Below the pieces are notes generated by a model, which saw only the letters and a list, made by a program, of their open reading frames with translations, was not told where the DNA came from and did not search any database. 64,000 bases of DNA, from NCBI RefSeq assembly GCF_002240055.1, contig NZ_CP016753.1, positions 1,302,001 through 1,366,000 of the forward strand, read 5' to 3'. The translations under genes were made by a program, and so were the position numbers. The stretch comes from Leptotrichia sp. oral taxon 498. GTDB taxonomy: Bacteria > Fusobacteriota > Fusobacteriia > Fusobacteriales > Leptotrichiaceae. Shown one piece after another: positions 8,413 through 28,099 of this stretch. How positions within the stretch are numbered: the first letter of the stretch is position 1; each line of letters begins with the position of its first letter.

Positions 8413-8459
8413 AATAAGTTAATTAGTAAAAAAAATAAGTTATAAGGATTGGATATAAT
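8413..8459 (+). promoter_or_regulatory. Composite promoter A: two AATAAGTTA boxes plus TATAAT
   Basis: Two identical AATAAGTTA boxes (8413-8421 and 8434-8442) are 21 bp apart. The second ends 11 bp before TATAAT (8454-8459). The same layout recurs at 8507, 10660, 18241, 20441, 21715 and 25027. No normal -35 box is present, so the boxes probably recruit an activator or a special sigma factor. Another copy (B) follows 94 bp downstream before the first GTPase gene. Confidence 0.65.
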
Positions 8460-9294: not shown

Positions 9295-9441
9295 TGTAGA
9301 TATTAAATTTTCTTTGGAGTGGTGAATGCTGAAACTTGGGTATAAAAAATTGTTTTTGTAAGTTAATTAAAAAGAAAAATGAGTTATTTAAAAATGTTAT
9401 CATAAGTTATAATAAAAATTTGATTTTTGGAGGAATGAAAT

Positions 9442-11106: not shown

Positions 11107-13221
11107 ATGGCTAAAATATTGATAGCAGGGTTGGGGAAAGGGATGATAGATCGTAACAGTGAAGAAAGAGACTACAGAAAAGCAGATTATAAAATAAAAA
11201 TTGAGGAAACAGGAGAATATAAAATTTATAGAGATGAATATTTTGTAACATCGGTATTAGAAAAACATTATGATATAGATAAAACAATATATATTGGAAC
11301 AGCAGGGTCGATGTGGGATAAACTTTATACACATTATTGTAAGAAAAATGGATTTTCCACTGAAAGTGAAGAATATGAAAAATATAGAGATGAATTGAGA
11401 AATGTTACTAAAAATGCGAATAAGAATACAGATGTTTTAAATATAAACAGTGAAAAATTTAATTCTATATTTGAGAATACAGAAAAAAAAGTACAAATAA
11501 TAGTAACAAAATATGGAATGAATAAAAATGAAATATTTGAAAACTTTAATAAAATTATAGAAATCGTAAATTCTTTAAATAAAGAAGATGAAATTTATTT
11601 GGATATAACCCATTCTTTCAGATCAAATGCAATGTGGATATTTTTAGTGATGAACTATATTACAGAAGTTATTGATAAAAATATAAGAATAAAAATGATA
11701 ACATATGGAATGCTGGAAGAAATGGATGATGATGAAACAGAAAAAGATTTAAATGGGAATCCTTTAAAAGTAGCTCCAATAATTAATTTGAAATCATTTT
11801 TTGACTTAATGAAGTGGATAAAAGGAGCGAATGCTTTTAAGCAATATGGGAATACTTATGAATTTTTAGATATGATTGAAGATAATAAGTTGAAAAATAC
11901 ATTGGAAGAATTTTCAAATTCAATGAATATGAACTATATTGGGAATATAAAAGAAAATATCGGAAAAATTAATCAAATGGAAAAAACAATAAAAACATTA
12001 GATGGACCTGCCAAACTATTATTACCAGATATTTTAGAAAGATTTGCACAAAATTTTGGTGAGAAGCAGGAGACATTTGAGATATTATTAGGTTTAGCGG
12101 AATGGCACTATAATCAAAAAAGATATTCAATGAGTTATGTAAATATTATTGAAGCTATTTATACTTTTACAGGAAAAATTTTAGAAGTTGAAGATATAAA
12201 TAAAGGTAAAGAAGTATTGAGAGAATGGATAAATAGAATAACTGAAGAAAATAAAATAAAATATAAAGATTTGTCAGAAAAAGAAATAAATAATAGAATA
12301 AAATTAAGTGAAATTTTTGAAAGTTCTAGAGTTATTAGAAATAATATTTCGCATACATTGGAAAGTAGAGCAGAAATGCAAGAAATTATTTCAAAAATCC
12401 CAGAAAATATACAAAAATTAAGAGAAATATTTAAAACTGAATATAAAAAAGGTGAGATTCATAAGTCACAAGATTTGAAAATGCAACAGACATATACTTT
12501 TTTAGAAAAATTAGCTGAAAATGGTCAGTTTGCAGAAATTGGTAGAGTTGCATCTAATGGAATTTATGATTTTTTGTTTGAGGAACTTGGAGTACAAAAG
12601 TCAGGAGAGAATAAAAATGTTGTAAAAAATTGGCTGGATAATAAAAGAGGAAATTTTGAAAAAGAATTAGAAAAAGGGCAATTATCTGAATTAATGAAGT
12701 TGTTTTTAGAAGTTAAAAATAATAGTAGAAGTATTACAAGAAAAGAAATAATTAAGAAGATAAGACACTTACAAAATATATTAACGAAAAAGTCATTTTT
12801 GGAAGCCATTGAAAATGTAAATTTAAATGATAAAAGAAGTTCTCAAACACAACAAGTGCCTAAAATAAATGTAAATAAAGAAGACAGAAAAATTTTAGTA
12901 TTTAAAGAAATATTTGGAGAGCAAGAAAAAAAAGAAGTAATAAAAAAATATAAGATAAAAAGAATAAGCAAATTGAGTAGTGAAATTGCAAAAGAATGGC
13001 AAAATCTTGAAAATGATAGCAACAAAGAAAAAAATATAAAAAGATTTAAAGATATAATAGACAGAAATATTGATTCAGGTGATATTTTATTGATAGAAGG
13101 AGAAGTTGGGATAACTTTTGAATTGGTAAATTGGGCAAAAGAAAAAGGAATTATTGCAATTTATGGAGTTGAGAAAGTGACTGATAATTTTTTACTTAAA
13201 GTAGAATTTTATGAATATTAA
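11107..13221 (+). CDS. csx1: CARF-HEPN ribonuclease (Csx1/Csx2 family) fused to a Csx20-like domain
   Basis: This 704-residue protein has an N-terminal CARF domain with GTAGSMWDKL (about residue 63) and the DxTH signature DITHSFRSNAM (Asp166). That is typical of the TM1812/Csx1-Csx2 family, which binds cyclic oligoadenylate made by Cas10. A helical HEPN domain follows with the RX4H ribonuclease motif RNNISH (Arg411-His416). The last 110 residues (594-704) match the separate Csx20-like protein encoded next, including LSSEIAKEW, DILLIEGE and GITFELVNW, but the SHxLT motif of the free protein is lost here (FKEIFG). Csx20 proteins are reported as a ring-nuclease family. So this is a nuclease carrying a possible off-switch or a sensor for its own ligand. 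AGAAGGAG precedes the ATG. Confidence 0.85.
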   Translation: MAKILIAGLGKGMIDRNSEERDYRKADYKIKIEETGEYKIYRDEYFVTSVLEKHYDIDKTIYIGTAGSMWDKLYTHYCKKNGFSTESEEYEKYRDELRNVTKNANKNTDVLNINSEKFNSIFENTEKKVQIIVTKYGMNKNEIFENFNKIIEIVNSLNKEDEIYLDITHSFRSNAMWIFLVMNYITEVIDKNIRIKMITYGMLEEMDDDETEKDLNGNPLKVAPIINLKSFFDLMKWIKGANAFKQYGNTYEFLDMIEDNKLKNTLEEFSNSMNMNYIGNIKENIGKINQMEKTIKTLDGPAKLLLPDILERFAQNFGEKQETFEILLGLAEWHYNQKRYSMSYVNIIEAIYTFTGKILEVEDINKGKEVLREWINRITEENKIKYKDLSEKEINNRIKLSEIFESSRVIRNNISHTLESRAEMQEIISKIPENIQKLREIFKTEYKKGEIHKSQDLKMQQTYTFLEKLAENGQFAEIGRVASNGIYDFLFEELGVQKSGENKNVVKNWLDNKRGNFEKELEKGQLSELMKLFLEVKNNSRSITRKEIIKKIRHLQNILTKKSFLEAIENVNLNDKRSSQTQQVPKINVNKEDRKILVFKEIFGEQEKKEVIKKYKIKRISKLSSEIAKEWQNLENDSNKEKNIKRFKDIIDRNIDSGDILLIEGEVGITFELVNWAKEKGIIAIYGVEKVTDNFLLKVEFYEY

Positions 13222-13328
13222 ATTTCAAAATTATGTTATAGGAATTTTTGTGATTTTAAATAGTTATGTAAAATAAAGAAGTTTGAAAGTTTAGTTTGGA
13301 ATATAGAAAAATTGAGGGAGATGATATT

Positions 13329-13712
13329 ATGGAGAGAAAAGCACTTTTACTATTTTCACATCAGTTGACGGAAAACCAAGAAAAAGAATTGGTAGAAAAT
13401 TTTAAGGTAAAAAAAATAATAAGTTTGTCTAGTGAATTACAAAAAATGTGGTCAAATGTATCAATTAAGGAAAATTATAAAGAAAATCTTGAAAAAATAA
13501 AAAAATATATTGAAGAAAATTTTAATGAAAATGATGTGATGTTGGTTCAAGGCAATTGGGGATATACATATAATATCGTTAAATGGTCGATAGAAAAGAA
13601 ATTGGTTCCTGTGTATAGTTATACTGAAAGAAATGTTGAAGAAATAAAAGATGGGGAAAATGTGAAGAAGATTAGTTATTTTAAACATGTGAAGTTTATT
13701 GAGTATGAGTAG
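13329..13712 (+). CDS. csx20: Csx20-family protein, candidate ring nuclease
   Basis: The 127-residue product begins ERKALLLFSHQLTENQEKEL, the characteristic opening of Csx20 with the SHxLT motif. It continues with ISLSSELQKMW, DVMLVQGNWGYTYNIVKW and a short C-terminal beta region. Csx20 occurs in type III loci and is reported to degrade cyclic oligoadenylate, which would turn the CARF effectors off. Its near copy is fused to the upstream CARF-HEPN protein. The ATG at 13329 is eight bases after GAGGGAG; an upstream in-frame start at 13296 has no ribosome site. It lies between two CARF-HEPN genes. Confidence 0.75.
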   Translation: MERKALLLFSHQLTENQEKELVENFKVKKIISLSSELQKMWSNVSIKENYKENLEKIKKYIEENFNENDVMLVQGNWGYTYNIVKWSIEKKLVPVYSYTERNVEEIKDGENVKKISYFKHVKFIEYE

Positions 13713-13757
13713 TAATAAAAAATAAATTTTCGATAAATTTATAGAAAGAAGGAAAAA

Positions 13758-15890
13758 ATGGAAAATAATATTTTAATAATGTCTTTATCAAATAATCTTG
13801 AAAAAAATATAGAAAAAGCAAAAAAAAATAAAAAAGAATACAGATGGGAAAATAAAAAATATGATTTGGAAAAATATGAGTATTTGACAAAAGTATATTT
13901 AGAAGAATTAAAACCTAATAAAATAATAGTTTTTGGAACAGATCAAAGTAGTTGGAATTATTTATATAATTTATTAAACGAGTATTTTTATTCTGAAAAA
14001 GAAGATGTTGTTTTTCTAGAAGAACAAAAAAATGATGTTGAATATATAAGAAAAGTTTTTAAAGAAAGATTTCCAGATAAATGTAAAATATTTTTTATAG
14101 AAAGTAAAAATAAATTTGATAACGAAAATATTGTTTCAGATTTAGTTTTTCAAATAGAAGAGATAAAAAATATATTAGATGAACAAAGCAGAAGCAAAGT
14201 TTATGTTGATATAACTGGTGGTCTTAGAATAATGTATATGTCATTAGTTTCAATCATCAATATTTTAAAAATGTACTATAGTCAATTGAATTTAAAAGTA
14301 CTGTATTCCCAAAATGACATAAATACAGATTATTTCCAAATAATAGATATAACAAATGTGCTAGAAAAATTGGATTTTGTAGACGCTGTTAGTTCTTTTA
14401 CAAAATATGGAAGCATTGCTAAATTGCGAGATATCATTCAAAATGAAGCTTTATTGAATAAACTAGAAGAATTGTATATAAAGTTACAATTTAATTTAAA
14501 AAATATAGATGACACTTATAAAACTTTGACAGAAATAAAGGGAAAAAATGAAAATGAAAAAATTTTAAAAGAAAGAGTTAAAAAATTAAAAACATTAAAA
14601 AATGAGAAATACCATAATAAAGTAAAAAATTATGGTTTAGAAATAGTAAATAAGTATGAAAGTGATAATATAAAATATAAAAATTTAAAAGATAAAAGAA
14701 ATAAAATTGTTCACCCACTAAATAAATTAGGGGAATATATAACAAATATTACTAATAATAAAAATTTACACAAAAAAAGAATTTTAATTTGGAATTTAGG
14801 ATCAGGCGAATCAGGAAAAGGATACAAAGAAGTATTATATTCTTATTCAGATAACGAAAAATCAGCCGACATAATAACACGTTATACATTTGAGTCTTAT
14901 CTAGAGGATTATAATCAAATTTATATTTTTGGACTTGAAACAGGGAAATGGGATATTTTAACAGAAGATTTTAAAAATAAAGGTATAATGTTACCAAACG
15001 ATAAAATAAAATATGTTCAAATTGATAATTTCGGAGATATAGATGAATTGAATCTAAAGATAGAAAATGAAATAAAGATAAAAAAACAAGAAATAATAGA
15101 AATAGATATGGATATTACTCATTCATTTAGAAATATTCCGTTTAATTTGTTGACTTCCTTGAGATTGTTTGAATTGTTAAATGATAATATTGTACTTCGT
15201 TCGATTTATTATGGAGAAAGAATATTAAACTCTGAATATGGAAGTATTTATAAAATACCAATTTTAGAAATAATTAATTTGTATAAATCAATAGTAGAAT
15301 TTAAAGATTATACGAAGTATACAAATTTTTTAGAAAATACTAAAATGATAGATGAAAAATTATTAAAAATTATGAGAAAAATTTCAGAAGCATATACATA
15401 TAATGAATATAGAAAGATTATAGAAATATCTAAAGAATTTGAAAAAGTAAATAATAAAGAATTAGATTTAATAAATAAAAAAATATATGAAATTATAGAA
15501 GTAAAATTAATAAAAAATGAAACATATGAAGAATTAATGAAATTTGTAAAAAATCAGAAAAATTCTAAAAATTATGCATTGGCGTCATTTTTCTTAATAG
15601 ATATTTACAAATATAAAATTTTTAAAATTGATTCAAAAGAAAAAAGCGAAACTTTTTATAAAAAAATAGAAAAGTTGAAAAATAAATATGTAGATAATAA
15701 ATTAAAAAAATTAATTGATTGTTTAAATAAATTAAATAATATAAGAAATTATGCAGGACATATTAATATTAGAGAGGAAGTAAATCTAATTAATTTTTCA
15801 GATTCATTAGAAAAAGCAATTAAAATTATGAATAAATTAACTTTAAAAGATATTGAAAAATATGAGAAAGAATACGAAGCAATAGAATAA
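13758..15890 (+). CDS. One-chain tandem CARF-HEPN-CARF-HEPN effector
   Basis: The 710-residue protein contains the CARF-HEPN unit twice. Half one: ILIMSLSNNLEKN at the start, IIVFGTDQSSWNYLYNLL, the CARF motif DITGGLRIMYMSL (Asp151) and HEPN RNKIVH (Arg314-His319). Half two: RILIWNLGSGESGKGY (from about 337), IYIFGLETGKWDIL, DITHSFRNIPFNLL (Asp452) and HEPN RNYAGH (Arg663-His668). Csx1/Csm6 enzymes normally dimerise to form the ligand pocket and the paired RNase site, so this chain could form both alone. Both RX4H motifs are intact. AAAGAAGGA precedes the ATG. It should cut RNA after cyclic oligoadenylate binding; ligand size cannot be told from sequence. Confidence 0.8.
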   Translation: MENNILIMSLSNNLEKNIEKAKKNKKEYRWENKKYDLEKYEYLTKVYLEELKPNKIIVFGTDQSSWNYLYNLLNEYFYSEKEDVVFLEEQKNDVEYIRKVFKERFPDKCKIFFIESKNKFDNENIVSDLVFQIEEIKNILDEQSRSKVYVDITGGLRIMYMSLVSIINILKMYYSQLNLKVLYSQNDINTDYFQIIDITNVLEKLDFVDAVSSFTKYGSIAKLRDIIQNEALLNKLEELYIKLQFNLKNIDDTYKTLTEIKGKNENEKILKERVKKLKTLKNEKYHNKVKNYGLEIVNKYESDNIKYKNLKDKRNKIVHPLNKLGEYITNITNNKNLHKKRILIWNLGSGESGKGYKEVLYSYSDNEKSADIITRYTFESYLEDYNQIYIFGLETGKWDILTEDFKNKGIMLPNDKIKYVQIDNFGDIDELNLKIENEIKIKKQEIIEIDMDITHSFRNIPFNLLTSLRLFELLNDNIVLRSIYYGERILNSEYGSIYKIPILEIINLYKSIVEFKDYTKYTNFLENTKMIDEKLLKIMRKISEAYTYNEYRKIIEISKEFEKVNNKELDLINKKIYEIIEVKLIKNETYEELMKFVKNQKNSKNYALASFFLIDIYKYKIFKIDSKEKSETFYKKIEKLKNKYVDNKLKKLIDCLNKLNNIRNYAGHINIREEVNLINFSDSLEKAIKIMNKLTLKDIEKYEKEYEAIE

Positions 15891-15927
15891 ATAAAATAAA
15901 AAATTATTTAGTATTTTATTAAATAGT

Positions 15928-15960
15928 GCAAGAACACTCGCGACTTTAGTCGTGGGAGGT
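15928..15960. repeat. Hairpin resembling an IS200/IS605 end
   Basis: CGCGACT and AGTCGTG pair around a TT loop inside AACACTCGCGACTTTAGTCG, followed by TGGGAGGTTC. The compact GC-rich hairpin stands out from the AT-rich surroundings and resembles the subterminal hairpins of IS605-type elements, such as the one at 60998-61019. No transposase is nearby, so it would be a remnant or a solo end. Confidence 0.35.
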
Positions 15961-16001
15961 TCAGATAGTTTAGAATGATGATACATAGGAGGAATTAAAA
16001 A

Positions 16002-18134
16002 GTGGAAAAAAATAAAATCTCAAGAATAGAATTAGCACGAGAAATAAGAAAATTATTTGTAAAGAATAGAAATATTCAGGAGTATTCAAAAATAGATGAT
16101 AATTTTTTAGTAGATTATTATTTTAATAGATATGATGAAAGAAATAATAAATCAGGGATGAAAATTGATGAAAATAATTTTAATTTGAAAATTTTTGAGG
16201 AAGATTTTAAGAATCATTTATTAAATGAAAAGAAACTGCTTGAAGAAGATGGAGTAGATACAAGCGAAATAACAAAAATAGTTTCAGCTTTTAGTCATAG
16301 TTACAGTGAAAACTCTATTCTTGAAGAATTACCATTTGAAAAAGATCTAAGAATATTTCCAAATATAAAAACACTTTATTTATTGTATACTGATCAAACT
16401 GAAAGTAAATTTTTGGAGTATAAGGAAGCAAGTAAATATAGAGATAAAATAAAAATAGAAGGTATTTTAATTGAGAACAGTATAGAAATGTTATATAAAG
16501 AAATAGTGAAGTTAATACAAGATGGAAAAATTTCAAAAAATAACACAGTTTTAGATACAACACTTGGTTTTAAGGAAATAGGAATTGTATTTTATCGAAT
16601 CTCAGTTGAAAAACAAATTAAATCAATTAACTGGCGTGAAACAATGTTACCTAATTATAAGCCTGCTGCTGATAATAAAAATGAATTTGTAAAAGGAAAA
16701 GGTCAAGGACCTAGAATGAGTCTGGTTACAAAATTAAACTTGATGAAAGAGCCATTAGAAGAATCGAATAGAATATATAGAAAAATAAATGAAAATATTT
16801 TAAAAGTAAATTGTAAAGCTGTTTCAGATTTATATGAAGTAGTAGGAATTGATGACTTAAGATTTTTCTATGAAGAAATTGGAAAACTATTTAATTTTTT
16901 TAAAATGTTAGAGTATAGCGAAGATATTGAAAATTTTTATAGTGATTTAAATGAAGCATTGAAAAAAATATTTAAATATAAATTTTTATCAGAAAATATT
17001 TCAAGATTGCGAGAATATGTAAAGTATCTGGCGAGAGTAATTTATAGAGTTGAAAGCGATTATATAGATATCAAGTGGTTAAAATTTAGTAACAATATTT
17101 TTGGGATAACAGAAAATGAGATAAAAAAAGAAAAAGATGAAAAAATAGAAAGAAATGTGGAGGATAAAGAATTAGATGATGATGAAATAAAAAGAATAAA
17201 AGAAAAAAAAACCGAATGGGAAAATATAGATTTTTATTCAGATGAAGATGATGAAGGTAAAGATGCTCTAGAATTGGAGAAAAGTATCGAAATGGTTGAC
17301 TATTTTTTGTATCTTTTATTAAAACAAGCTATTTTTGAAAAAATTTCGAATTATCATTTAAAAAGTATTTTAGAAGAGTATTATAAAGAAGAAATGATTC
17401 AAGAGATTATTGGAGTAAGAGATTCGGTTGATATAAGTGAAGATGAAAAAATTAAACTTATAAAAAATATCTTATTTGAAGAACTTACAGAAGAGTATGA
17501 ATTAGAGGAGTTTGAAATACCTGATTTAGCAGATAAAAATGTAGGATTGCTTAAATATAAAGGCGGAATACTAGATATACCGTTTGAAGATGAAGGGAAA
17601 TTGGAAATATTAAAAATTAATTTTAAAGAAGAATATTTTATAAGAAAAAGAGATAAAAGACAAGAATTTGATATTTCAAAAGTGGAAAATAGGATTAAAC
17701 TAAATAAAAAAATAGAAATAAAAATGAAATTAGAAGAAATACTTGATAAAAATAATAAAGATGAGATAAACTTTCCTTTTAAAATTTCAGAAAAATCGGA
17801 TATAGTTGAAATACAAAATGGTAAAATAGTTACGAAAAGTGATAGAAAGACTAAAGTAAAAAATATCTTTTTTAATAATTCTGATAGTATAATTAATGTT
17901 CCGATAGTAGAGTTATTTAAGAATATTGAAAAAAATAAATTTGAGATTTCTAAAAAAGATTTAGAATATAAATTTGGAATAAAAGATCAAAAAGTTACTA
18001 AATTAAAAGATATTATTTTTGGGATAAACCAAATAATCAGGAGAAAAATTGAAGAAAAATATCCTAAAAAAGACGATGTTGAAGATTTTATTATTTATGA
18101 AAATGGATTAAAGATAAATTTAAAATATAGATAG
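16002..18134 (+). CDS. Divergent CARF-domain protein with unknown C-terminal half
   Basis: The 710-residue protein has a CARF-like region around residues 110-220: NIKTLYLLYTDQTESKF followed by TVLDTTLGFKEIGIVFYRIS, where DTTLGFKE (Asp185) sits in the place of the CARF DxTGG motif. The region after it is mostly charged and helical, with an acidic segment (YSDEDDEGKDALELEKS, around residue 410). I see no RX4-6H HEPN pair, PD-(D/E)XK set, HD or TIR motif in the last 450 residues. It starts with GTG, supported by AGGAGG 9-10 bases upstream. A terminator follows the stop closely. A cyclic-oligonucleotide-controlled effector is the best inference; the effector activity is unknown. Confidence 0.6.
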   Translation: MEKNKISRIELAREIRKLFVKNRNIQEYSKIDDNFLVDYYFNRYDERNNKSGMKIDENNFNLKIFEEDFKNHLLNEKKLLEEDGVDTSEITKIVSAFSHSYSENSILEELPFEKDLRIFPNIKTLYLLYTDQTESKFLEYKEASKYRDKIKIEGILIENSIEMLYKEIVKLIQDGKISKNNTVLDTTLGFKEIGIVFYRISVEKQIKSINWRETMLPNYKPAADNKNEFVKGKGQGPRMSLVTKLNLMKEPLEESNRIYRKINENILKVNCKAVSDLYEVVGIDDLRFFYEEIGKLFNFFKMLEYSEDIENFYSDLNEALKKIFKYKFLSENISRLREYVKYLARVIYRVESDYIDIKWLKFSNNIFGITENEIKKEKDEKIERNVEDKELDDDEIKRIKEKKTEWENIDFYSDEDDEGKDALELEKSIEMVDYFLYLLLKQAIFEKISNYHLKSILEEYYKEEMIQEIIGVRDSVDISEDEKIKLIKNILFEELTEEYELEEFEIPDLADKNVGLLKYKGGILDIPFEDEGKLEILKINFKEEYFIRKRDKRQEFDISKVENRIKLNKKIEIKMKLEEILDKNNKDEINFPFKISEKSDIVEIQNGKIVTKSDRKTKVKNIFFNNSDSIINVPIVELFKNIEKNKFEISKKDLEYKFGIKDQKVTKLKDIIFGINQIIRRKIEEKYPKKDDVEDFIIYENGLKINLKYR

Positions 18135-18147
18135 ATTATACAGAAAG

Positions 18148-18178
18148 AACCATCTTGAAAAATTTAAGATGGTTTTTA
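18148..18178 (+). terminator. Terminator after the CARF gene
   Basis: AACCATCTT (18148-18156) and AAGATGGTT (18166-18174) form a perfect 9-bp stem and are followed by TTT. It closes the CARF effector unit before the nrdG promoter. Confidence 0.75.
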
Positions 18179-18240
18179 CCAATTATATAATTAAAAAATG
18201 ATATTATTAGATTTTATAATAAGTAAATACTAAAGAGAAA

Positions 18241-18286
18241 AATGAGTTATTTTAGAGAAAAATAGGGGAAAAATATTTGTTAAAAT
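18241..18286 (+). promoter_or_regulatory. Composite promoter H for nrdG-nrdD
   Basis: AATGAGTTA (18241-18249) and the weaker AATAGGGGA (18261-18269) lie 20 bp apart, with 11 bp to TAAAAT (18281-18286). The arrangement is the same as before the GTPase genes. The nrdG start is 36 bp downstream. Confidence 0.55.
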
Positions 18287-18321
18287 TATTGATGTAATAG
18301 AGATGTAAGTGGAGGTATATA

Positions 18322-18783
18322 ATGAAAGTAAAAATTGCATCAATTAAGAAAAACAGATATGAAGATGGGCCTGGAATTAGAACAACAATATTTTTTCAAG
18401 GTTGTAATGTAAAATGTAGAGGTTGTCACAATGAAAGAATACAAGATATACGATATGGAAAAGAGTATGAAGTGAGAGATTTATGTGAAGAAATATTATC
18501 GTATAACTTGCCAGTAAAAAAAATTACTATTTCAGGTGGAGAACCTATGATGCAAAAAGAAGCCTTAGAAGAATTTATTGATGAAATGCACAAGAAAAAT
18601 TTTGAAATTGCACTTTATACTTCATATGACTTAGAGGAAGTTCCAAAAAACATTTTAGAAAAATTAAAGTATTTAAAAGTTGGAAAATATATAGATACAT
18701 TGAGAATACAAGAAAAGTTTTATGGATCAAGTAACCAAAAATTTTATTCATTGGAAAAAGGAGAGATTGTAAATGAGAGTTAA
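18322..18783 (+). CDS. nrdG: Anaerobic ribonucleotide reductase activase (NrdG-like radical SAM)
   Basis: The 153-residue protein has the radical-SAM cluster motif CNVKCRGC (CxxxCxxC) right after a GPGIRTTIFFQG block, and the SAM-binding ISGGEPM motif. This is the compact architecture of NrdG, which uses SAM and a 4Fe-4S cluster to put the glycyl radical on NrdD. GGAGG precedes the ATG. Its 3' end overlaps nrdD by 11 bp, so the two are translated together. The pair sits inside the CRISPR accessory block under the shared composite promoter, not in a housekeeping context. The family call is firm; a role in phage defence is inferred from position. Confidence 0.88.
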   Translation: MKVKIASIKKNRYEDGPGIRTTIFFQGCNVKCRGCHNERIQDIRYGKEYEVRDLCEEILSYNLPVKKITISGGEPMMQKEALEEFIDEMHKKNFEIALYTSYDLEEVPKNILEKLKYLKVGKYIDTLRIQEKFYGSSNQKFYSLEKGEIVNES

Positions 18784-20371
18784 TCAAGCAAATGCAAATA
18801 CAAATGCAGCATATAGAATTTTGAAAAATGAAGAATTTAAAAATCAATTGCACGAAGAAAGATGGATTCATATTCATGATAAAGAGTATACAGGGGTTTC
18901 ATATAATTGCATTGGGATTGAATTAAGAGAAAAATTAAACCAACTGAAAGAAAATTTAGAAGAAATGGAAATTGATGATGCATTAGATTGTATTTTTCAA
19001 GTAATTGTAAATTTAACAAATGACCAATCAGGTGGAATAGGGTTTATTAATATTGACAGTGATTTGGCGGAATTTGTACAAGAAGTTTCAGAAGAAAAAT
19101 TAATAACAAAAATTAGAAGATTATACCAAAAGTTGAATTTACCATTGAGAAATGGGTATGAAAAGGCGTATGTCTCATTTAATTTAGGATTAGATACTAG
19201 TGAAAATGGGAGAAAAGTAACTAGATGTTTTTTAAAGGCTTTTGAATATGGTGAAATATTAAATGGATTACCTTTTGTTTTTCCAAATATAATTTTCAAA
19301 TTAAAAAAAGGTATTAATTTTGATTCGGATGACAAAAACTATGATTTATTTTCATTAGCAACTAAAGTGACAGGAAAAAGAATGAATCCAACATATTTTA
19401 ATTGTGATAGCGTTTTAGTAAAAGATATTAATGAGAAAAAAGTTGGAATAATGGGGTGCAGAACATTAGTTGCAAAAAATGTAAATGGAGAAGAAGGAGC
19501 ATTAAAAAGAGGGAACATTGCATCAATTTCAATAAATTTACCAAAAATAGCAAGAGAAAGTACAAATTTAAATAATTTTTATAAAAAATTGAGTGAAATC
19601 TGTGAAGAATCAAAAGATATCTTAATTCAAAAATATAAGGCATTGTGCAAATTAGAAATTGATAATTTTAGATATATTTTAGAAAATAATTTTTATGAAA
19701 ATTCTGAAGAGGCAATAAACAATAATGATATGGAAAAAAGTTTTAAAAATGGTACACTTTCAATTGGATTTATTGGATTGGCTGAATGCGTAAGTTATTT
19801 AGTAAAAAAAGAAATATCTTTAGATATGATAGAAAATAATTTAGAATTGTCGAGAGAAATATTAAGATTTATGAGAAAAATGACGGATAAATGGACTAAA
19901 AAGTATAATTTGAATTTTTCAGTTTTGGCAACTCCTGGCGAAGGAATTAGTGGGAGATTTTGTGAAGATGAAGAAACTAAGGAATTTTATACAAATTCGT
20001 TTCATATACCAGTTTATCTTGAATTAGATGCATTTAAAAAATTAGAATTAGAATCAAATTTTGTTGAATATTGTAATGGAGGTTCAATTTCTTACATCGA
20101 ATTTTCAACGCCTGTGTTAAATAATAGTGAAGCGATTATGGATGTTGTTAAATTTGGAATTTCAAAAGGTATAAATTATTTAGGAATAAATTTCCCGTTA
20201 GATTATTGTGAAAGTTGTAAAACTACTGGAATATTTGAAGAAAAATGCAGTTGTTGCGGAAGTATTGAAATAAAAAAATTAAGAAGAGTTTCTGGCTATT
20301 TATCATATAAAGAAACATTAAAAGGTGGAAAAAAAGCAGAGGAAAAAGTTAGAAAATCTCATTTGAAATAG
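18773..20371 (+). CDS. nrdD: Compact class III ribonucleotide reductase (NrdD-like) without ATP cone
   Basis: At 532 residues it is shorter than usual NrdD (about 600-700). The N-terminal ATP-cone that senses dATP is missing, and the protein starts close to the catalytic barrel: HIHDKEYTGVSYNC puts the first active-site Cys at residue 46. The second Cys is probably in GIMGCRTL. The zinc site CESCKTT/KCSCCGS and the glycyl-radical loop RRVSGYLS are intact, so it should be active once charged by NrdG. It makes deoxyribonucleotides from ribonucleotides under anoxia. Loss of the cone predicts weaker feedback control. It is placed with the CRISPR island by the upstream composite promoter and by a terminator that ends the pair. 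Confidence 0.88.
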   Translation: MRVNQANANTNAAYRILKNEEFKNQLHEERWIHIHDKEYTGVSYNCIGIELREKLNQLKENLEEMEIDDALDCIFQVIVNLTNDQSGGIGFINIDSDLAEFVQEVSEEKLITKIRRLYQKLNLPLRNGYEKAYVSFNLGLDTSENGRKVTRCFLKAFEYGEILNGLPFVFPNIIFKLKKGINFDSDDKNYDLFSLATKVTGKRMNPTYFNCDSVLVKDINEKKVGIMGCRTLVAKNVNGEEGALKRGNIASISINLPKIARESTNLNNFYKKLSEICEESKDILIQKYKALCKLEIDNFRYILENNFYENSEEAINNNDMEKSFKNGTLSIGFIGLAECVSYLVKKEISLDMIENNLELSREILRFMRKMTDKWTKKYNLNFSVLATPGEGISGRFCEDEETKEFYTNSFHIPVYLELDAFKKLELESNFVEYCNGGSISYIEFSTPVLNNSEAIMDVVKFGISKGINYLGINFPLDYCESCKTTGIFEEKCSCCGSIEIKKLRRVSGYLSYKETLKGGKKAEEKVRKSHLK

Positions 20372-20394
20372 TGTGAATAAAATACAAACTAATA

Positions 20395-20437
20395 AAAGAA
20401 ATTGTTTCAAATTATTGGAGCAGTTTCTTTTTGTTTT
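20395..20437 (+). terminator. Terminator after nrdD
   Basis: AAAGAAATTGTTT pairs with GAGCAGTTTCTTT (wobble pairs included) around an AT-rich loop, followed by TTGTTTT. It lies between the nrdD stop and the next composite promoter. Confidence 0.65.
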
Positions 20438-20440
20438 AGA

Positions 20441-20487
20441 AATAAGTTAATTACTAAAAAAAATAAGTTAAAGAAATAGATTATAAT
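20441..20487 (+). promoter_or_regulatory. Composite promoter I for the third GTPase gene
   Basis: Two perfect AATAAGTTA boxes (20441-20449, 20462-20470) lie 21 bp apart, with 11 bp to TATAAT (20482-20487). It is nearly identical to promoter A at 8413, including the sequence TTAATTACTAAAAAA between the boxes, so the two regions were probably duplicated together. Confidence 0.7.
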
Positions 20488-20533
20488 TACAATGTAAAAA
20501 GAAAAAGAAAAAAGTAGAAAGAAGGTATTGATT

Positions 20534-21646
20534 ATGAAACGTGACTTATTGAAAGAATTTGAAAGTATTATTATGAAACAAAAGTTGAATGAAAATGTGA
20601 AACAAAAATTGTTAGGTAATTTATTGAGATTGAAAAAACAGAAAGTTAATTTGATGGTTACAGGTGCAACAGGTTGTGGGAAAAGTAGTACGATAAATGC
20701 GTTATTTGGTGTAGAAGTGGCTAAAGTTGGAACAAGTGTGGATCCTGAAACAATGGATATTGAAAGATATGAGTTAGACAATTTAGTAGTATGGGATACT
20801 CCAGGATTAGGTGATGGAAAAGAAGCGGATAACAGACACAGTAAAAGAATGATTGATAAACTTTATGAAAAAGATGAAAATGGGAATTTGCTAATAGATT
20901 TAGTTTTGGTGATTTTAGATGGTGGTAGTAGAGATTTAGGAACATCGTATGAGTTAATAAATAATGTGATTATACCGAATTTAGGAAAAAATAAAGAAAA
21001 TAGAATATTAGTGGCAATTAATCAAGCGGATGTAGCGATGAAGGGGAAATATTGGAACGAAGAAGAAAATAGGCCTGAGGATGAGCTAGAAGAATTTTTA
21101 GATAGAAAAGTAGAATCTGTAAAGAAAAGAATTAAAGAAGCGACAAGAATAGAAGTAGAACCAATATATTACAGTGCAGGATACAAAGAAGAAGGATATT
21201 TACAACAAAAACCGTACAACTTATCAAAATTATTATATTACATATTACAAAATACACCAGAAGAAAAAAGAGTAGTTTATGTGCAAAATTTGAATCAAGA
21301 AGAAGTAATGTGGAAAGATAATGATGATTTGAAAGATTATAGAAAAGGTATTTTGGAAAGTATTTTAGGAGCAGCAGTTGGAGTGTTAGCAGAAGGTGTG
21401 GCAAATGTGGTAAATGGAGTTGCAAATGTAGTTGAAGGTGCATCAGATGGGATTTCAGAAGGTAGTGATACAGGATCAGATGTTGGTGGAGCAATAGGTA
21501 GTATATTTGGAGAAGTTGGAGAAACAATAGGTTCAGCAGTGGGTTCAGTAGTTGGAGGAGTTGTTGGTGGAGTAGTAGGAGCAGTTAGTTCGGCAGTAAG
21601 TAGTGTGTGTGATACGATTGGAAGTTTCTTTAGTGGATGGTTTTAA
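20534..21646 (+). CDS. P-loop GTPase with long glycine-zipper tail
   Basis: The 370-residue protein is a close paralogue of the GTPase at 9619. G1 is GATGCGKSST, G3 WDTPGLGDG and G4 NQADVAMKGKYWN, and the linker again reads MWKDNDDLKDYRKG. From about residue 280 the tail runs through AEGVANVVNGVANVVEGASDG, a serine/glycine section and a GxxxG-rich part (GSAVGSVVGGVVGGVVGAV), ending IGSFFSGWF. The tail could insert into or wrap on a membrane. The ATG at 20534 follows GAAGG by nine bases, as in the 9619 gene; the TTG at 20528 is rejected. It has its own composite promoter and is followed by a stable hairpin. Confidence 0.87.
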   Translation: MKRDLLKEFESIIMKQKLNENVKQKLLGNLLRLKKQKVNLMVTGATGCGKSSTINALFGVEVAKVGTSVDPETMDIERYELDNLVVWDTPGLGDGKEADNRHSKRMIDKLYEKDENGNLLIDLVLVILDGGSRDLGTSYELINNVIIPNLGKNKENRILVAINQADVAMKGKYWNEEENRPEDELEEFLDRKVESVKKRIKEATRIEVEPIYYSAGYKEEGYLQQKPYNLSKLLYYILQNTPEEKRVVYVQNLNQEEVMWKDNDDLKDYRKGILESILGAAVGVLAEGVANVVNGVANVVEGASDGISEGSDTGSDVGGAIGSIFGEVGETIGSAVGSVVGGVVGGVVGAVSSAVSSVCDTIGSFFSGWF

Positions 21647-21671
21647 ATGAATTAAATAAAAAGTTGTTCTG

Positions 21672-21702
21672 CTTGAATCCCTTCAAACTGAGGGGATTTG
21701 AG
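21672..21702 (+). other. Stable RNA hairpin between GTPase and ecsC genes
   Basis: CTTGAATCCCTT (21672-21683) and AGGGGATTTGAG (21691-21702) can pair over 12 positions, three of them G-U, around a 7-nt loop. There is no T run after it on this strand, so it is not a standard terminator. It may end or stabilise the GTPase transcript. Confidence 0.45.
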
Positions 21703-21714
21703 TGGAAAAAAAAA

Positions 21715-21760
21715 AGTATGTTATTTTAGAAAAAGATGAGTTAAAAAAAAGTGATATCAT
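21715..21760 (+). promoter_or_regulatory. Composite promoter J for ecsC
   Basis: Boxes AGTATGTTA (21715-21723) and GATGAGTTA (21735-21743) are 20 bp apart; TATCAT (21755-21760) begins 11 bp after the second. The boxes and -10 are weaker than in other copies, but the spacing holds. The gene starts 32 bp after the -10. Confidence 0.45.
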
Positions 21761-21792
21761 AATCTTGTAAAAAATATTAGGAGGTATTAGCT

Positions 21793-22407
21793 ATGTTAGA
21801 AAGAGAAATGATGAATTTGTTGGATGTGTGTTATGATAAGGCTTTACAAGGTGTATTGCCAGTAGAAAAATCAATTGAAGAATTAGCAGAAGATTATTTA
21901 GCAAAAACTAACAGTAGAGAAAAAGCAATAGACAAGTTAATAGGATATCAAACAGTATTGTGTGGAACAAATGGATTTATAACAGGATTAGGTGGATTAT
22001 TAGTATTACCAGTAGCAATATCAGCAAATGTAGCAGGTGTGATTTATGTACAATTAAGAATGATAGCAGCAATAGCACACATAAATGGGTATGATATTTA
22101 CAGCGATCAAGTAAGAACAATAGCTTATGCATGTTTAACAGGAAGTTCAGCAGCAAATATATTAAAAAATGTGGGAATAAAAATTAGTGAAAAAATGGCA
22201 GTTAATGCGTTAAAAAAAGTTCCAGGAGCAATATTGATAAAAATAAATCAACAAGTTGGATTCAGATTAGTTACAAAATTTGGACAAAAAGGTTTGGTGA
22301 ATGTCATAAAAATGATGCCATTAGTAGGCGGAGTAGTAGGTGGAGTATTTGACACAGGGATGACATTAACAATAGGGAATATAGCAAAAAAAGTATTTTC
22401 GGAATAG
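21793..22407 (+). CDS. EcsC-family protein
   Basis: The 204-residue protein fits the EcsC family along nearly its whole length: GFITGLGGLLVLPVAISANV, YVQLRMIAAIAHINGYD, AYACLTGSSAANILKNVG, GFRLVTKFGQKGLVNV and PLVGGVVGGVFDTGMTL. The family is named for a protein near the Ecs ABC transporter in Bacillus; its biochemical role is not known, but the two hydrophobic Gly-rich stretches suggest membrane association. Here it has a composite promoter like the GTPases and lies just before cas1. TAGGAGGTAT gives a good ribosome site. It may partner the GTPases at the membrane; that is inference. Confidence 0.8.
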   Translation: MLEREMMNLLDVCYDKALQGVLPVEKSIEELAEDYLAKTNSREKAIDKLIGYQTVLCGTNGFITGLGGLLVLPVAISANVAGVIYVQLRMIAAIAHINGYDIYSDQVRTIAYACLTGSSAANILKNVGIKISEKMAVNALKKVPGAILIKINQQVGFRLVTKFGQKGLVNVIKMMPLVGGVVGGVFDTGMTLTIGNIAKKVFSE

Positions 22408-22439
22408 TAAAGTAATTGTAAAAATTAATGCCAAATGTA

Positions 22440-22491
22440 ACTTGGACTCTTGAAAAAAGATTTTTAAGGGGGAAGAATCAAGAGTTTGAGT
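22440..22491 (+). other. Stable RNA hairpin upstream of cas1
   Basis: ACTTGGACTCTTGA (22440-22453) and TCAAGAGTTTGAGT (22478-22491) pair over all 14 positions, three of them G-U, around a 24-nt loop with AAAAAGATTTTT. A related sequence (TCAAGAGTTTAATTT) occurs after the last cas gene near 35451. No T run follows, so it could be a processing or attenuation element in the ecsC-cas1 transcript. Confidence 0.45.
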
Positions 22492-22546
22492 CAAATTTGG
22501 AACTGGATTTAAAATTAAAAATTTATTTACGAAAGGATAAAAAACT

Positions 22547-23518
22547 ATGGAACTATATATAACAGATTTAGGGACAGTGGTAAAAAAGAGAGATGATTTG
22601 TTTGAGATAACTACGAGTGAGAAGAAAGTGGCAGTGGCTCCACAAAAGATAAAATCATTAGTGCTATCTAAAGGGATATTTTTGACAACAGATGTAATAA
22701 AATTAGCAGTGGATAATAATATTGATATAGTGATTGTTGATGATTTTGGAAATCCTTATGGAAGATTTTGGCAAAGTAAATTTGGTTCAACAGCTAATAT
22801 TAGAAGAAAACAGTTGGAAATATTTGGGACTCAAAAGGGAATTGAATTGGCAAAACAAATATTGATACAAAAAATTAAAAATTGTACAGAACATTTGGAA
22901 GATTTGAAGATAAAAAGAGAAGCGAAAAAAGCATTTTTGGATAAACAAATAAAAGAAATGAAAAGATATATTTATCAAATAAAATTAGTAGAAGGAAATG
23001 TTAGTGAAAAAAGAGGAACTTTGATGGGGTACGAAGGGAATGCAGCAAAAATATATTATCAAACATTGTCGGAATTGATACCAGAAGGATTTAAATTTGA
23101 AAAAAGAAGTATGCACCCTGCGGAAGATGAATTTAATGCAATGTTAAACTATGCTTTTGGAATACTGTACAGTAAAGTTGAAAAAGCTTGTATAATTGCG
23201 GGACTGGATCCTTATGTTGGAATAATTCATACAGATAATTATGGGAAAAAATCGCTTGTTTTTGATTTAATAGAAAGTTACAGACATTTGGCTAGTAGAA
23301 CAGTATTTTCACTTTTTACACAAAAAAGAGTTCAAAAATATTTTTTCAAAAGAGAAGGAAATAGCGTTATGCTAGTAGGCGATGGAAAAAAAGTTTTGGT
23401 TGAGAGTTTTTATAACAGATTGGAAAAAAAGGTGCGTTACAATAACAGAAATATTTCGAGTTTAGATAAGTTACAGTTTGAATGTCATGAATTAGCAAAT
23501 TTTTTGATATCAAAGTAA
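22547..23518 (+). CDS. cas1: CRISPR integrase Cas1
   Basis: The 323-residue protein is a standard Cas1. The metal-binding catalytic residues are visible: Glu163 in GYEGNAAKIYY, His228 in GIIHTDNYG and Asp240 in SLVFDLIE. The N-terminal beta domain begins ELYITDLGTVVKKRDDLFEI with VLSKGIFLTTDVIKLAVDNN. With Cas2 it inserts new spacers at the leader-repeat boundary. It heads cas1-cas2-cas4; no reverse transcriptase is fused. ACGAAAGGA precedes the ATG. Arrays on both sides, each with a leader, are its likely substrates. Confidence 0.96.
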   Translation: MELYITDLGTVVKKRDDLFEITTSEKKVAVAPQKIKSLVLSKGIFLTTDVIKLAVDNNIDIVIVDDFGNPYGRFWQSKFGSTANIRRKQLEIFGTQKGIELAKQILIQKIKNCTEHLEDLKIKREAKKAFLDKQIKEMKRYIYQIKLVEGNVSEKRGTLMGYEGNAAKIYYQTLSELIPEGFKFEKRSMHPAEDEFNAMLNYAFGILYSKVEKACIIAGLDPYVGIIHTDNYGKKSLVFDLIESYRHLASRTVFSLFTQKRVQKYFFKREGNSVMLVGDGKKVLVESFYNRLEKKVRYNNRNISSLDKLQFECHELANFLISK

Positions 23519-23577
23519 AATTAAAATTTTGGGGACTTGAGGACTAATTTTGAATTATTTATAGAAGGTGATTGAAA

Positions 23578-23868
23578 ATGATGACTTGGTTGATATACGA
23601 TATAACAGATGATAGAAATAGAAGAGAAATTATTAGAATAGCACAAAAGCATGGATTATACAGGGTTCAGAAGTCGGTATTTCTAGGAAATATAGAAAAA
23701 GATGAAGTTGATGAAATTATAGTGGAAACAAAAAAAGCAATTGATTTACGAGAAGATTCAGTATATATTTTCCCAGTTTGTGAAGCAGATTATAAAAAGG
23801 CAACATTACTGGGATTATCTTTTGAACAAGATATCGTTAAAGATGAGAAGCCAGTACTATTTTTTTAA
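23578..23868 (+). CDS. cas2: CRISPR adaptation protein Cas2
   Basis: The 96-residue protein has the ferredoxin-like Cas2 fold signature: MMTWLIYDITDDRNRREI at the first strand with the conserved Asp, YRVQKSVFLGNI and a C-terminal SVYIFPVCEADYKK. It forms the central dimer of the Cas1-Cas2 integrase. GAAGGTG lies seven bases before the ATG at 23578; a TTG at 23572 is rejected. Cas4 follows after 15 bp. Confidence 0.95.
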   Translation: MMTWLIYDITDDRNRREIIRIAQKHGLYRVQKSVFLGNIEKDEVDEIIVETKKAIDLREDSVYIFPVCEADYKKATLLGLSFEQDIVKDEKPVLFF

Positions 23869-23883
23869 AAGAGGTGAATAAAA

Positions 23884-24531
23884 ATGGAAGTTATTAAATC
23901 TCAAAAAATATCAATATTTGAAGTTTTGGACTATATTTTTTGTCCTAGAATAATATATTATGAAAATGTGCTAAAAATGTTTGGAGAAAAAAAGGAAGAT
24001 TCTAACAAGGAAGAAGAAGAAAGAGTGAAAGGAAAAAATCGTATAAATAGGAAATGGATATGGGATAGACTAAAATTAAAAAAACAAAGTATAGAAAAAA
24101 TGATGAATTCAAATCAAGAAAACATATTATACTGGTATAATAGAGAATTTAACAAAGAATTGTCTTCAGAAAGATATCATTTTTATGGAAAATTAGACGA
24201 CATACTTCTTTTAGAAGACGAAACAATAGTTCCAGTTTATTACTACAATGCTAAATATACAGCAAGAGAAGAAAATAGATACAAATATATAGTAGCCATG
24301 TTTTTAATATTAATTGAAGAAGAGTATAAAATTAAATCTCAAAAAGGGTATATTTTGTTTTTGGATGGTTTATCATTAAAGAAAATAGAATGTACAAATA
24401 AAGATTTGGAAAAAGTAAAAGAAAGTGCTGCTGAAGTATTAAAAATAATTGAAACTGAGCGATACCCGATAGAAGCAGAAGGCGGTACAAAATGCCGAGA
24501 TTGTTATTACAAAAAAATTTGTGGAAGATAG
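23884..24531 (+). CDS. cas4: Cas4-family protein with altered nuclease site
   Basis: The 215-residue protein has the four Cys residues expected for the Cas4 iron-sulfur cluster: one in FCPRIIYY near the N-terminus and three in CRDCYYKKIC at the C-terminus. The RecB-like core shows YGKLDDILLL and the helix ENRYKYIVAMF. The usual E-x-K catalytic pair (PVEYKxGK in typical Cas4) is replaced by PVYYYNAK (Tyr119-Tyr121), so the Glu and the Lys are both missing. It may recognise PAMs or bind DNA ends without cutting them. A charged insertion (EDSNKEEEERVKGKN) follows the first Cys. It completes the adaptation set. Confidence 0.85.
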   Translation: MEVIKSQKISIFEVLDYIFCPRIIYYENVLKMFGEKKEDSNKEEEERVKGKNRINRKWIWDRLKLKKQSIEKMMNSNQENILYWYNREFNKELSSERYHFYGKLDDILLLEDETIVPVYYYNAKYTAREENRYKYIVAMFLILIEEEYKIKSQKGYILFLDGLSLKKIECTNKDLEKVKESAAEVLKIIETERYPIEAEGGTKCRDCYYKKICGR

Positions 24532-24548
24532 TATTAAAAAATAAAAAT

Positions 24549-24601
24549 AGAGGAAATCATTTTTTAGTAAACTTATCATAAATAGATTTTCTCTTTTTTT
24601 G
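24549..24601 (+). terminator. Terminator after cas4
   Basis: AGAGGAAATC (24549-24558) and GATTTTCTCT (24585-24594) pair with one wobble around a 26-nt loop, followed by TTTTTTT. It separates cas4 from leader 2. Confidence 0.6.
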
Positions 24602-24621
24602 TAAAAAAATCAAAAAAAATT

Positions 24622-24649
24622 TTGAAAAAATAAAAAAGTATGGTAAAAT
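24622..24649 (+). promoter_or_regulatory. Promoter in CRISPR leader 2
   Basis: TTGAAA (24622-24627) and an extended -10 TGGTAAAAT ending at 24649 have a 16-bp spacer. Sequence and spacing are the same as in leader 1. Confidence 0.55.
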
Positions 24650-24854: not shown

Positions 24855-24966
24855 GGTTAAAGAAGTGAATCCATTAAAACAAGGATTGAAACTTGATTGT
24901 CCGTTAAACGAATCTGGATTTTCCCATATGTTAAAGTAGTGAATCCATTAAAACAAGGATTGAAAT
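24855..24966 (+). CRISPR. CRISPR array 2: two variant repeats, one spacer
   Basis: Two 37-nt repeats (24855-24891 and 24930-24966) flank one 38-nt spacer. They differ from array 1 near the 5' part (GTTAAAGAAGTGAATCC and GTTAAAGTAGTGAATCC against GTTAAAGTAGTTTATCC) and share the ATTAAAACAAGGATTGAAA end. The last repeat ends in T instead of C, a common sign of the trailer-end copy. So the array is short but has a full leader. Confidence 0.92.
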
Positions 24967-25026: not shown

Positions 25027-25073
25027 AATAGGTGAATTATTAATAAAAATAGGTTAGAACAATGGTATATAAT
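25027..25073 (+). promoter_or_regulatory. Composite promoter K upstream of the cas6-cas10 operon
   Basis: AATAGGTGA (25027-25035) and AATAGGTTA (25048-25056) are 21 bp apart, with 11 bp to TATAAT (25068-25073). This ties the interference operon to the same control as the GTPase, nrdDG and ecsC genes. It is 228 bp before the cas6 start. Confidence 0.65.
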
Positions 25074-26131: not shown

Positions 26132-28099
26132 ATGAGCGAAAAAGATCAAACATTTAAAAATCAAACATTTGAAGATGTATTAAAAGAAAATAGAGTTTTA
26201 GTAAGTATTGAAACTGTAAAAATAAAAGATTTTATTTTTTCAACAAATAAATTGAAATTAATTAGAGGAGCAAGTTATCTTTTGGATTATATGAATCAAG
26301 TCGAAGTGCCAAGAATATTGAAGAAATATGGATTAGAATATAATTCAAAAGAGCTTGTAGATGAGATTTATAATATTAATGCCGACAAGGAATTTTTAGA
26401 AAAAGTAGATGAAGAAATAGACAAGGCTATTGATAAAAGAATATTGTATATTGGAGCTGGAAATGCTAAATTTTTAGTTGATAGTGAAAAAACGGCTGAA
26501 AAGATATGTAAAGAGATAAAAGAAATATACAAAAATTTAGCTCCAAGTGCAAAAGTAGTTGCAGAGTGTTATCCAATGAAAGAAAATGAAAAAATATGGA
26601 CTGCAATTGATGAATTAGCACAGAAAACTGCTGAGAAAAAAAGTGAAGGATTTCCTATGTTGAATATTGATTTGCCATTTGCTATGAAGTGTGACTTGTC
26701 AGGGACTGAACCAGCGGTTGTAAGTTTGAAGAATCTAGAAAAAGATTTAAAAAAAATAGAAATTCATAGAAGTGGGGAAGGTTCTGATGATGATAAACAG
26801 GTGGAAGATACTATAACTGCTATAAGAAATGTTATAAAAAAAGATAACATGAAAATTAGTGAAGAAAGTGCTGTAAAAATTAAGTATTCTAATAAAATGA
26901 TAAAAGATGATGTGAATGAGATTGGATTTTATTCGATTATAAAAAAAGCTCTTAATTATGATATTCATTTAAATACAGAGATTGATGATTATTCAGTAGG
27001 AGATAGTTTTATTGGATTTGTGTATAGTGATGGAGATGGACTTGGAGATTTTTTGAAAAATGTAAAAAAAGTTTATACAACTGAAGAAGAATATTTAAAA
27101 TTTATGAGAAAATTCAGTGTTATTTTGGATAGAAATACAAAATATGTATTAAAAGAAGTTATCAAAAAGATGTATGATGCTGAAAAATTTGTTAAGAAAA
27201 AAACAATTCTGAAAGATGGAAAACCGAAATATAAAATAATTAATGGAGAGAAAAAAATAGTTGAAAAATCTATAATTGGAGAATTTCTTATTGTTGGTGG
27301 AGATGATGTTTGTGCAGTATTTCCAGCAGATTTAGCAATAGAAATTTCATATGAATTTCAAAAAGAATTTGAAAAAAAGATGAACGAATTTACTAAAATT
27401 GAAAATGAAAAAAATGAAAAGAAAAATCCAGAAAATATAACTTCTTCTTGTGGAGTTGTAATTGCGAAAAATAAAACACCGATGTTTCAATTATTTGAAC
27501 AAGGTCTTAAATTACAAAAATCTGCTAAAGCAAAAAGATATCAAGAAAATAAAAATAGAGAAGGGAAAGTGCGAACAGGATATATTGATTTTCAAGTGAT
27601 TGGTAATGAAGGAAATGTAAATATAAAAGAATATAGAAAAAAATGGTATGATAAATTTGATAAAGAAGATGAAAATAAAGGGAAATTACATGTTTCTAGA
27701 AGACCTTATAGTATTAGAGGATTGGAAAAGGAAGAATATAAAGATGTGTCTGAAAGTATTGATAAACTTATTGACCAAGTAAAAAAATTGAAAACAAAGA
27801 ATTTTCCAAACACAAAAATCAGATATATTTATGATTTGAAAAAGGATGATACTAAAACTGATAATGAAAAAATTATGGAATCAATAAATATTTTATCTAA
27901 AATGAGTACAGAGGAAATTCAAGTTTTAAATAAATTGTGGGGAATAAAAGATAAAATGAACTTAAGTTTTGAAAATGAAAATAAAAATGAAAAATTTAAA
28001 GAATTTTTTGATAATATTTTTGATGTATTGGAAATTTATGATTTTATTCAAAAGGATAAAAGCTCTTCAGAAAAGGAGGATAATAATAGTGGGAATTAA
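26132..28099 (+). CDS. cas10: Cas10, type III large subunit without HD domain
   Basis: The 655-residue protein has two palm domains. Palm 1 starts at VSIETVKIKDFIFSTNKLK and includes LIRGASYLLDYM and RILYIGAGNAKFLV. Palm 2 contains SDGDGLGDFL (about residue 299) and the cyclase motif GGDD (389-392) in EFLIVGGDDVCAVFPADLA. The usual N-terminal HD nuclease is absent. A zinc-ribbon-like place reads MKCDLSGTEPA with only one Cys left. It should therefore make cyclic oligoadenylates when target RNA is bound, but not cut DNA. AAGGAGG precedes the ATG. Its 3' end overlaps the next gene by 11 bp. Confidence 0.9.
   Translation: MSEKDQTFKNQTFEDVLKENRVLVSIETVKIKDFIFSTNKLKLIRGASYLLDYMNQVEVPRILKKYGLEYNSKELVDEIYNINADKEFLEKVDEEIDKAIDKRILYIGAGNAKFLVDSEKTAEKICKEIKEIYKNLAPSAKVVAECYPMKENEKIWTAIDELAQKTAEKKSEGFPMLNIDLPFAMKCDLSGTEPAVVSLKNLEKDLKKIEIHRSGEGSDDDKQVEDTITAIRNVIKKDNMKISEESAVKIKYSNKMIKDDVNEIGFYSIIKKALNYDIHLNTEIDDYSVGDSFIGFVYSDGDGLGDFLKNVKKVYTTEEEYLKFMRKFSVILDRNTKYVLKEVIKKMYDAEKFVKKKTILKDGKPKYKIINGEKKIVEKSIIGEFLIVGGDDVCAVFPADLAIEISYEFQKEFEKKMNEFTKIENEKNEKKNPENITSSCGVVIAKNKTPMFQLFEQGLKLQKSAKAKRYQENKNREGKVRTGYIDFQVIGNEGNVNIKEYRKKWYDKFDKEDENKGKLHVSRRPYSIRGLEKEEYKDVSESIDKLIDQVKKLKTKNFPNTKIRYIYDLKKDDTKTDNEKIMESINILSKMSTEEIQVLNKLWGIKDKMNLSFENENKNEKFKEFFDNIFDVLEIYDFIQKDKSSSEKEDNNSGN

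Follow-up and report, generated by a model that had tools for sequence, protein, structure and literature searches.

A compact phage-type NrdG-NrdD pair beside type III CRISPR genes in Leptotrichia and in defence-like loci of other bacteria

Class III ribonucleotide reductases of the formate type (NrdD1) and their activase NrdG are the closest described systems to the gene pair analysed here, and the enzymes of Prevotella copri, E. coli and phage T4 share with it the fold, the glycyl-radical loop, the zinc site, the Met-x-Cys motif, the second cysteine and the asparagines found here at positions 45 and 248. Compared with the NrdD of E. coli, however, the compact NrdD is about 22 residues shorter between QSGG and the N137 strand, and the pair departs from NrdD1 systems in lacking an ATP cone, in having nrdG before nrdD, and in carrying the residues Y44, S86, C211, I226, C292 and S507. 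Among ordinary NrdDs, the closest full-length core (36-39% identity) is that of the enzymes of about 675 aa encoded by nrdR-nrdD-nrdG operons in Clostridia, which, unlike the compact pair, have an N-terminal ATP cone, housekeeping neighbours, and the order nrdD then nrdG. The same gene order, a compact size (564 aa) and membership of the same clade are found in phage NatCom_17901 (Ca. Heliusvirales) and in IMG/VR contig 3300028844, at 36-41% identity to the compact pair; just downstream, one of them has a thymidylate kinase gene and the other a phosphoesterase gene, neither of which is a defence gene. Type III accessory effectors that act on nucleotides, such as the CARF-HAD phosphatase and the CARF adenosine deaminase, likewise bring nucleotide metabolism into a type III island, although the reaction expected of the compact pair would be synthesis and not depletion. 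Because the pair has no CARF domain, there is no sign that it is activated by cyclic oligoadenylate. A search for NrdD or NrdG with type III CRISPR systems in a limited library of papers found nothing relevant, so that an earlier mention elsewhere is possible. The compact pair adds a member to a known enzyme class, and its novelty lies in its lineage and its repeated placement in defence islands.

The window, by which we mean the whole stretch of 64 kb that was analysed, covers positions 1302001-1366000 of the 2.15-Mb single-contig genome of Leptotrichia sp. oral taxon 498 (G000). Upstream of the pair lie signalling genes for CARF-HEPN-Csx20, Csx20, CARF-HEPN-CARF and CARF proteins (11107..18134; PADLOC and NCBIfam matches), and downstream of nrdD come dynamin/IRG-like GTPase and EcsC-like (PDC-S29) genes (20528..22407), the adaptation genes cas1, cas2 and cas4 (22547..24531; cas1 and cas4 assigned by NCBIfam, cas2 by position and length) and the Cas10 of a III-D-like effector complex (26132..28099; PADLOC Cas10 matches, with Csx10 and TIGR03986 as neighbours), all of them on the plus strand. 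Three related dynamin/IRG-like GTPase genes (8596-10623 and 20528-21646), each with its own operator copy, flank the signalling and nrdG-nrdD genes. The leaders of two CRISPR arrays (7269-7517 and 24613-24861) show 86% identity across 249 nt, and a spacer-like stretch, AAAGGATTTTCTTGAAAGTACGG, is found beside the first repeat in both arrays. Elsewhere in the window, a PriA-like helicase gene (36564-38800) is apparently split in two overlapping reading frames, perhaps by a frameshift.

The pair itself consists of nrdG (18322..18783, plus strand), encoding a radical-SAM activase of 153 aa, and nrdD (18773..20371, plus strand), encoding a class III ribonucleotide reductase of 532 aa, the start of which overlaps the end of nrdG by 11 nt. 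The sequence-only reading from which we started had described such a pair, with an intact active-site cysteine, zinc site and glycyl-radical loop and without an ATP cone, and the family matches and the mapping on T4 NrdD confirmed each of these points. The compact NrdD scores 380.9 bits with Pfam NRDD (PF13597; cut-off 26.2) and 356.9 bits with TIGR02487 (cut-off 326.35). NrdG matches Pfam Fer4_12 and Radical_SAM above their cut-offs and its CX3CX2C motif is intact (C28-x3-C32-x2-C35), but it is divergent, as it scores 86.5 bits against the NrdG equivalog TIGR02491, below the trusted cut-off of 126.1. On T4 NrdD, C46 corresponds to C79, C229 to C290, N45 to N78, N248 to N311, and G508 to G580; C229 is the thiyl-radical cysteine of the finger loop and C46 the second active-site cysteine, and both are intact. 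The zinc site CxxC...CxxC is complete (C479/C482/C492/C495), and so is the glycyl-radical loop, which reads RRVSGY at 504-509 and includes G508. No residues precede the core, compared to 111-118 in cone-bearing relatives, and an N-terminal ATP cone is thus absent. Position 248 is Asn, as expected of the formate type, and not Cys, while the clade carries additional invariant cysteines at 211 and 292. The enzyme also has a finger-loop methionine (M227) and N45, and a methionine in this loop and an asparagine preceding the second cysteine are features of formate-type NrdD1 (PMC4493059). An AlphaFold2 model (pLDDT 88.6) superposes on Prevotella copri NrdD with a TM score of 0.89, compared to about 0.5 for CutC and other glycyl-radical enzymes, as expected of a NrdD fold. 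Catalytic residues and fold alike are as in ordinary NrdDs of the formate type, and the reaction that the enzyme most likely carries out is therefore the usual reduction of NTPs with formate; the proposals that the pair acts on an unusual substrate or is linked to SAM-AMP found no support. A viperin-like interpretation of NrdG was also considered and rejected, with 37.4 bits against a cut-off of 180 for NF038283 and a PADLOC pVip match of 36 bits. The PADLOC 2.0.0 library contains no family for this NrdD.

A second, full-length NrdD with an ATP cone had been expected elsewhere in the host genome. A separate and longer enzyme does exist, with its own NrdG at 367-370 kb, but this NrdD of 727 aa has no cone, and the same is true of the NrdE of the host's class Ib NrdI-NrdE at 1.94 Mb; the sole ATP cone in the host is that of NrdR. 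Absence of dATP feedback, which had been put forward as a special trait of the CRISPR-linked enzyme, therefore does not set it apart. Having a complete separate NrdD and a class Ib NrdE, the host would not need the compact pair for basic growth. Directly after the host nrdI-nrdE genes comes a gene for a protein of 835 aa that has a cytosine-C5 methylase domain (L043:1532-4039).

With regard to transcription, nrdG-nrdD is predicted to be a unit of its own under a variant of an operator shared by the island. As had been claimed, the pair sits between two intrinsic terminators on the plus strand, one after the CARF gene and upstream of nrdG (18145..18177; 15-bp stem with a T run, -15.6 kcal/mol, z -6.3) and the other after nrdD (20394..20431; -16.9 kcal/mol, z -4.6). 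A promoter shared with the defence genes had been proposed as well, and this proposal holds in part, as the element before nrdG is real but altered. The island element is a direct repeat with the consensus TARGTDAAT-N9-AAATRRGTTA, copies of which are found on the plus strand before the GTPase genes at 8596-9294 (8415..8442), 9613-10623 (9359..9386) and 20528-21646 (20443..20470), and before cas6 at 25302 (25029..25056). Before nrdG, the operator-like repeat TAAGTAAAT-N11-AAATGAGTTA (18220..18249, plus strand) has a spacer 2 nt longer (N11 vs N9) and no TATAAT-like hexamer at the place where, by reading of the sequence, the four other copies have one, 11 nt past the repeat; for these two reasons the site is a variant of the island element. 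When a leave-one-out matrix built from the four non-nrdG sites was scanned over the 64 kb, the nrdG site scored 22.0, the fifth best value, and was followed by sites at 10662 (16.4) and 21717 (13.3), both before island genes, with 12.6 as the best score outside the island. A pattern allowing N9-N11 gave six matches in the 2.15-Mb genome, five of them in the island, while its reversed control gave no match. Since the nrdG site had been used in drawing this pattern, the leave-one-out score provides the fairer test; the sixth match, before a hisZ-like gene, is probably due to chance. The nrdG site is unchanged in G009 and G078, and has decayed to a score of 12.8 in G001.

The compact form is rare. 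It was found in 5 of 98 Fusobacteriota genomes and in 2 of 391 sampled Clostridia genomes (Fervidicella and G434, the copy of the latter carrying an in-frame stop), and denser sampling of the order to which these two belong (226 genomes) returned the same two and no further member. A search of genome contigs yielded one locus, that of Fervidicella, and a search of plasmids found no compact relative. With the single compact NrdD protein as query, viral contigs gave no match, whereas a search with an alignment recovered 63 loci, one of which has the nrdG-first order; a phage collection contributed one nrdG-first relative, NatCom_17901. In a tree of 41 NrdDs, the seven bacterial compact forms and the two phage NrdDs make up one clade with support of 100/99, in line with the expectation that compact forms would group together. 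The placement of this clade relative to the others is unsure, as the program warns of long branches. Recent descent of the compact NrdD from the housekeeping NrdD of Leptotrichia is ruled out by the tree, in which the two fall in separate clades. Only in the compact clade does nrdG directly precede nrdD, as all other loci in which we found nrdG have it after; the residues listed above as distinguishing the pair are signatures of the whole clade, phages included, and some of them adjoin catalytic ones. The compact core is shortened much like that of the cone-bearing clostridial enzymes of about 675 aa, and fusobacterial members have lost about 14 further residues before the HIHD motif. By its sequence, the pair belongs to a rare lineage, shared with gut phages and separate from the housekeeping NrdD of the host.

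The expected linkage of compact forms to CRISPR loci is true of the nearest relatives: the three nearest carriers have the pair beside type III genes, while the distant bacterial members have it in other defence-like loci. CRISPR genes adjoin all four intact Leptotrichiaceae copies and none of the three more distant ones (G042, Fervidicella and G434). In G000, G001, G009 and G078, the pair lies within the same cassette of CARF, Csx20, GTPase and cas1-2-4 genes. The effector joined to this cassette is a III-D-like Cas10 in G000 (11107-28099) and a type III-A Csm1 in G009 and G078 (L033 and L040). Among G000, G009 and G078, the effector module has been exchanged, with accessory and adaptation genes retained. 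G042 (60% identity), a Fusobacteriales genome, carries a one-strand series of nrdG, nrdD, a HEPN gene and a WYL regulator gene, which are separated by about 0, 82 and 12 nt and bordered by ordinary genes. This nrdG-nrdD-HEPN-WYL set (L041:5610-9129) is a candidate small defence unit. In Fervidicella (about 48% identity), the pair ends a run of genes for a WYL regulator, a UPF1-like helicase, a PIN protein, a ClpB-like ATPase and another radical-SAM protein. The cluster (L093:3217-16686), whose helicase is MkoA-like and which has a serine recombinase nearby, looks like an undescribed defence cluster. The G434 pair has an HTH-dynamin gene on one side and a JukA gene (E 7e-78) on the other, and a GmrSD/SspE-like gene lies farther out. 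All four bacterial contexts of the compact clade look defence-like from their gene content, and these are the only four independent ones known. As a control, ordinary clostridial NrdDs stand in nrdR-nrdD-nrdG operons among housekeeping neighbours, and a PADLOC scan of 55 such neighbours (E <= 1e-15) gave 10 matches, most of which, judged by their family names (dGTPase, DnaG-like and the like), are homologues with housekeeping roles. Since control neighbours also score, a PADLOC match alone is weak evidence, and the specific families seen in the compact contexts are better evidence.

The history of the pair shows both maintenance and loss. The compact NrdD of G078, which belongs to another genus, is 97% identical to the copy in the window while the housekeeping NrdDs are 72% identical, and the island has therefore moved between genera; G007, the nearest genome by housekeeping NrdD (98%), lacks the pair. 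The dN/dS values of 0.09-0.16 for compact nrdD and 0.19-0.25 for nrdG indicate purifying selection. G001 has two copies of nrdG (L034:9682-10144 and 17692-18150): the one beside nrdD is frame-broken, and the other, which is 80% identical and located 8 kb upstream, is intact. In G010, nrdG is broken and nrdD is reduced to two fragments. Decay of both partners in G010 and retention of an intact spare nrdG in G001 are as expected of a functional pair; at the same time, because the pair was lost in G010 while the island persists, it is dispensable to the type III island, though maintained where present.

The explanation we favour, with a probability of about one half, is that a phage-type, formate-dependent ribonucleotide reductase has become part of defence islands, where it supplies dNTPs anaerobically and on induction. 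NrdG would use S-adenosylmethionine to put a radical on Gly508 of NrdD. By means of Cys229, Cys46, Met227, Asn45 and Asn248, NrdD would convert NTPs to dNTPs with formate as the reductant and, without an ATP cone, should escape activity control by dATP. We infer that the shared operator switches the unit on along with the accessory genes of the type III CRISPR system. dNTPs would then be made in the course of a defence response or following it, at a time when RNA and DNA suffer damage from nuclease effectors and the housekeeping pathway may be constrained; they might serve repair, recovery or spacer acquisition. Against this explanation, no adjacent gene has an obvious need for dNTPs, the promoter of nrdG deviates from the consensus of the island, the independent bacterial contexts number only four, and the pair was lost in G010. 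Could the pair instead be phage-derived metabolic cargo on mobile islands, perhaps of slight help to anaerobic DNA synthesis and with no immune role? On this view, such islands would gather mobile genes whatever their function. In its favour, the phage relatives have the reversed gene order and the signature residues too, the distribution is rare and patchy, serine recombinases occur near the pair in Fervidicella and, by reading, in phage contig L122, and the copy in G010 has decayed. A mere passenger, however, would hardly be expected to keep a shared operator and terminators of its own, to show the low dN/dS of nrdD, to retain an activase copy in G001, or to recur in defence-like contexts in four lineages, and we hold this account to be rather unlikely.

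Two further accounts give the pair a more specific task. An uncontrolled enzyme could drain NTPs, unbalance dNTPs or make an altered nucleotide and so be antiviral in itself, in the manner of dCTP deaminases, dGTPases, CARF-HAD phosphatases and viperins. Nucleotide pools are in fact a known target of type III effectors, by ATP deamination or through the CARF-HAD phosphatase (PMC12715507), and of the Clover dGTPase (PMC12265719), and the invariant clade-specific residues, some beside catalytic ones, as well as the weak resemblance of NrdG to pVip, could be read in the same sense. Such an active role is possible, yet no feature of the sequence requires it. All catalytic residues are as in ordinary NrdD; the signature residues are also present in the phage members, which would naturally use the enzyme to produce dNTPs; the resemblance to viperin (37 vs 180 bits) is far under the family cut-off; and a DNA phage would be expected to benefit from extra dNTPs. 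We accordingly consider it quite improbable. Slightly more doubtful still is a role confined to CRISPR adaptation, with dNTPs used to fill gaps as cas1-cas2-cas4 integrate spacers; the Leptotrichiaceae pair does stay with this module in spite of the change in effector type, but no cas genes lie near the relatives in G042, Fervidicella and G434, and G010 keeps cas1 without nrdG-nrdD. More speculatively, and in our opinion unlikely, the nrdG-first compact lineage as a whole might be a dedicated immune module taken from phages and switched on by several unrelated defence systems, with the changed NTP/dNTP balance being either antiviral in itself or a step in recovery.

The placement of the compact pair among defence genes suggests that supplying nucleotides belongs to the immune response. 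Of the known immune enzymes acting on nucleotides, most break them down, whereas a ribonucleotide reductase kept in defence islands would work in the opposite direction and make DNA precursors while immunity is active. If recruitment as a dNTP source is true, a phage metabolic gene has been recruited by the immune system of the host, and the question of whether a type III response in an anaerobe needs or changes the dNTP supply becomes one that can be tested.
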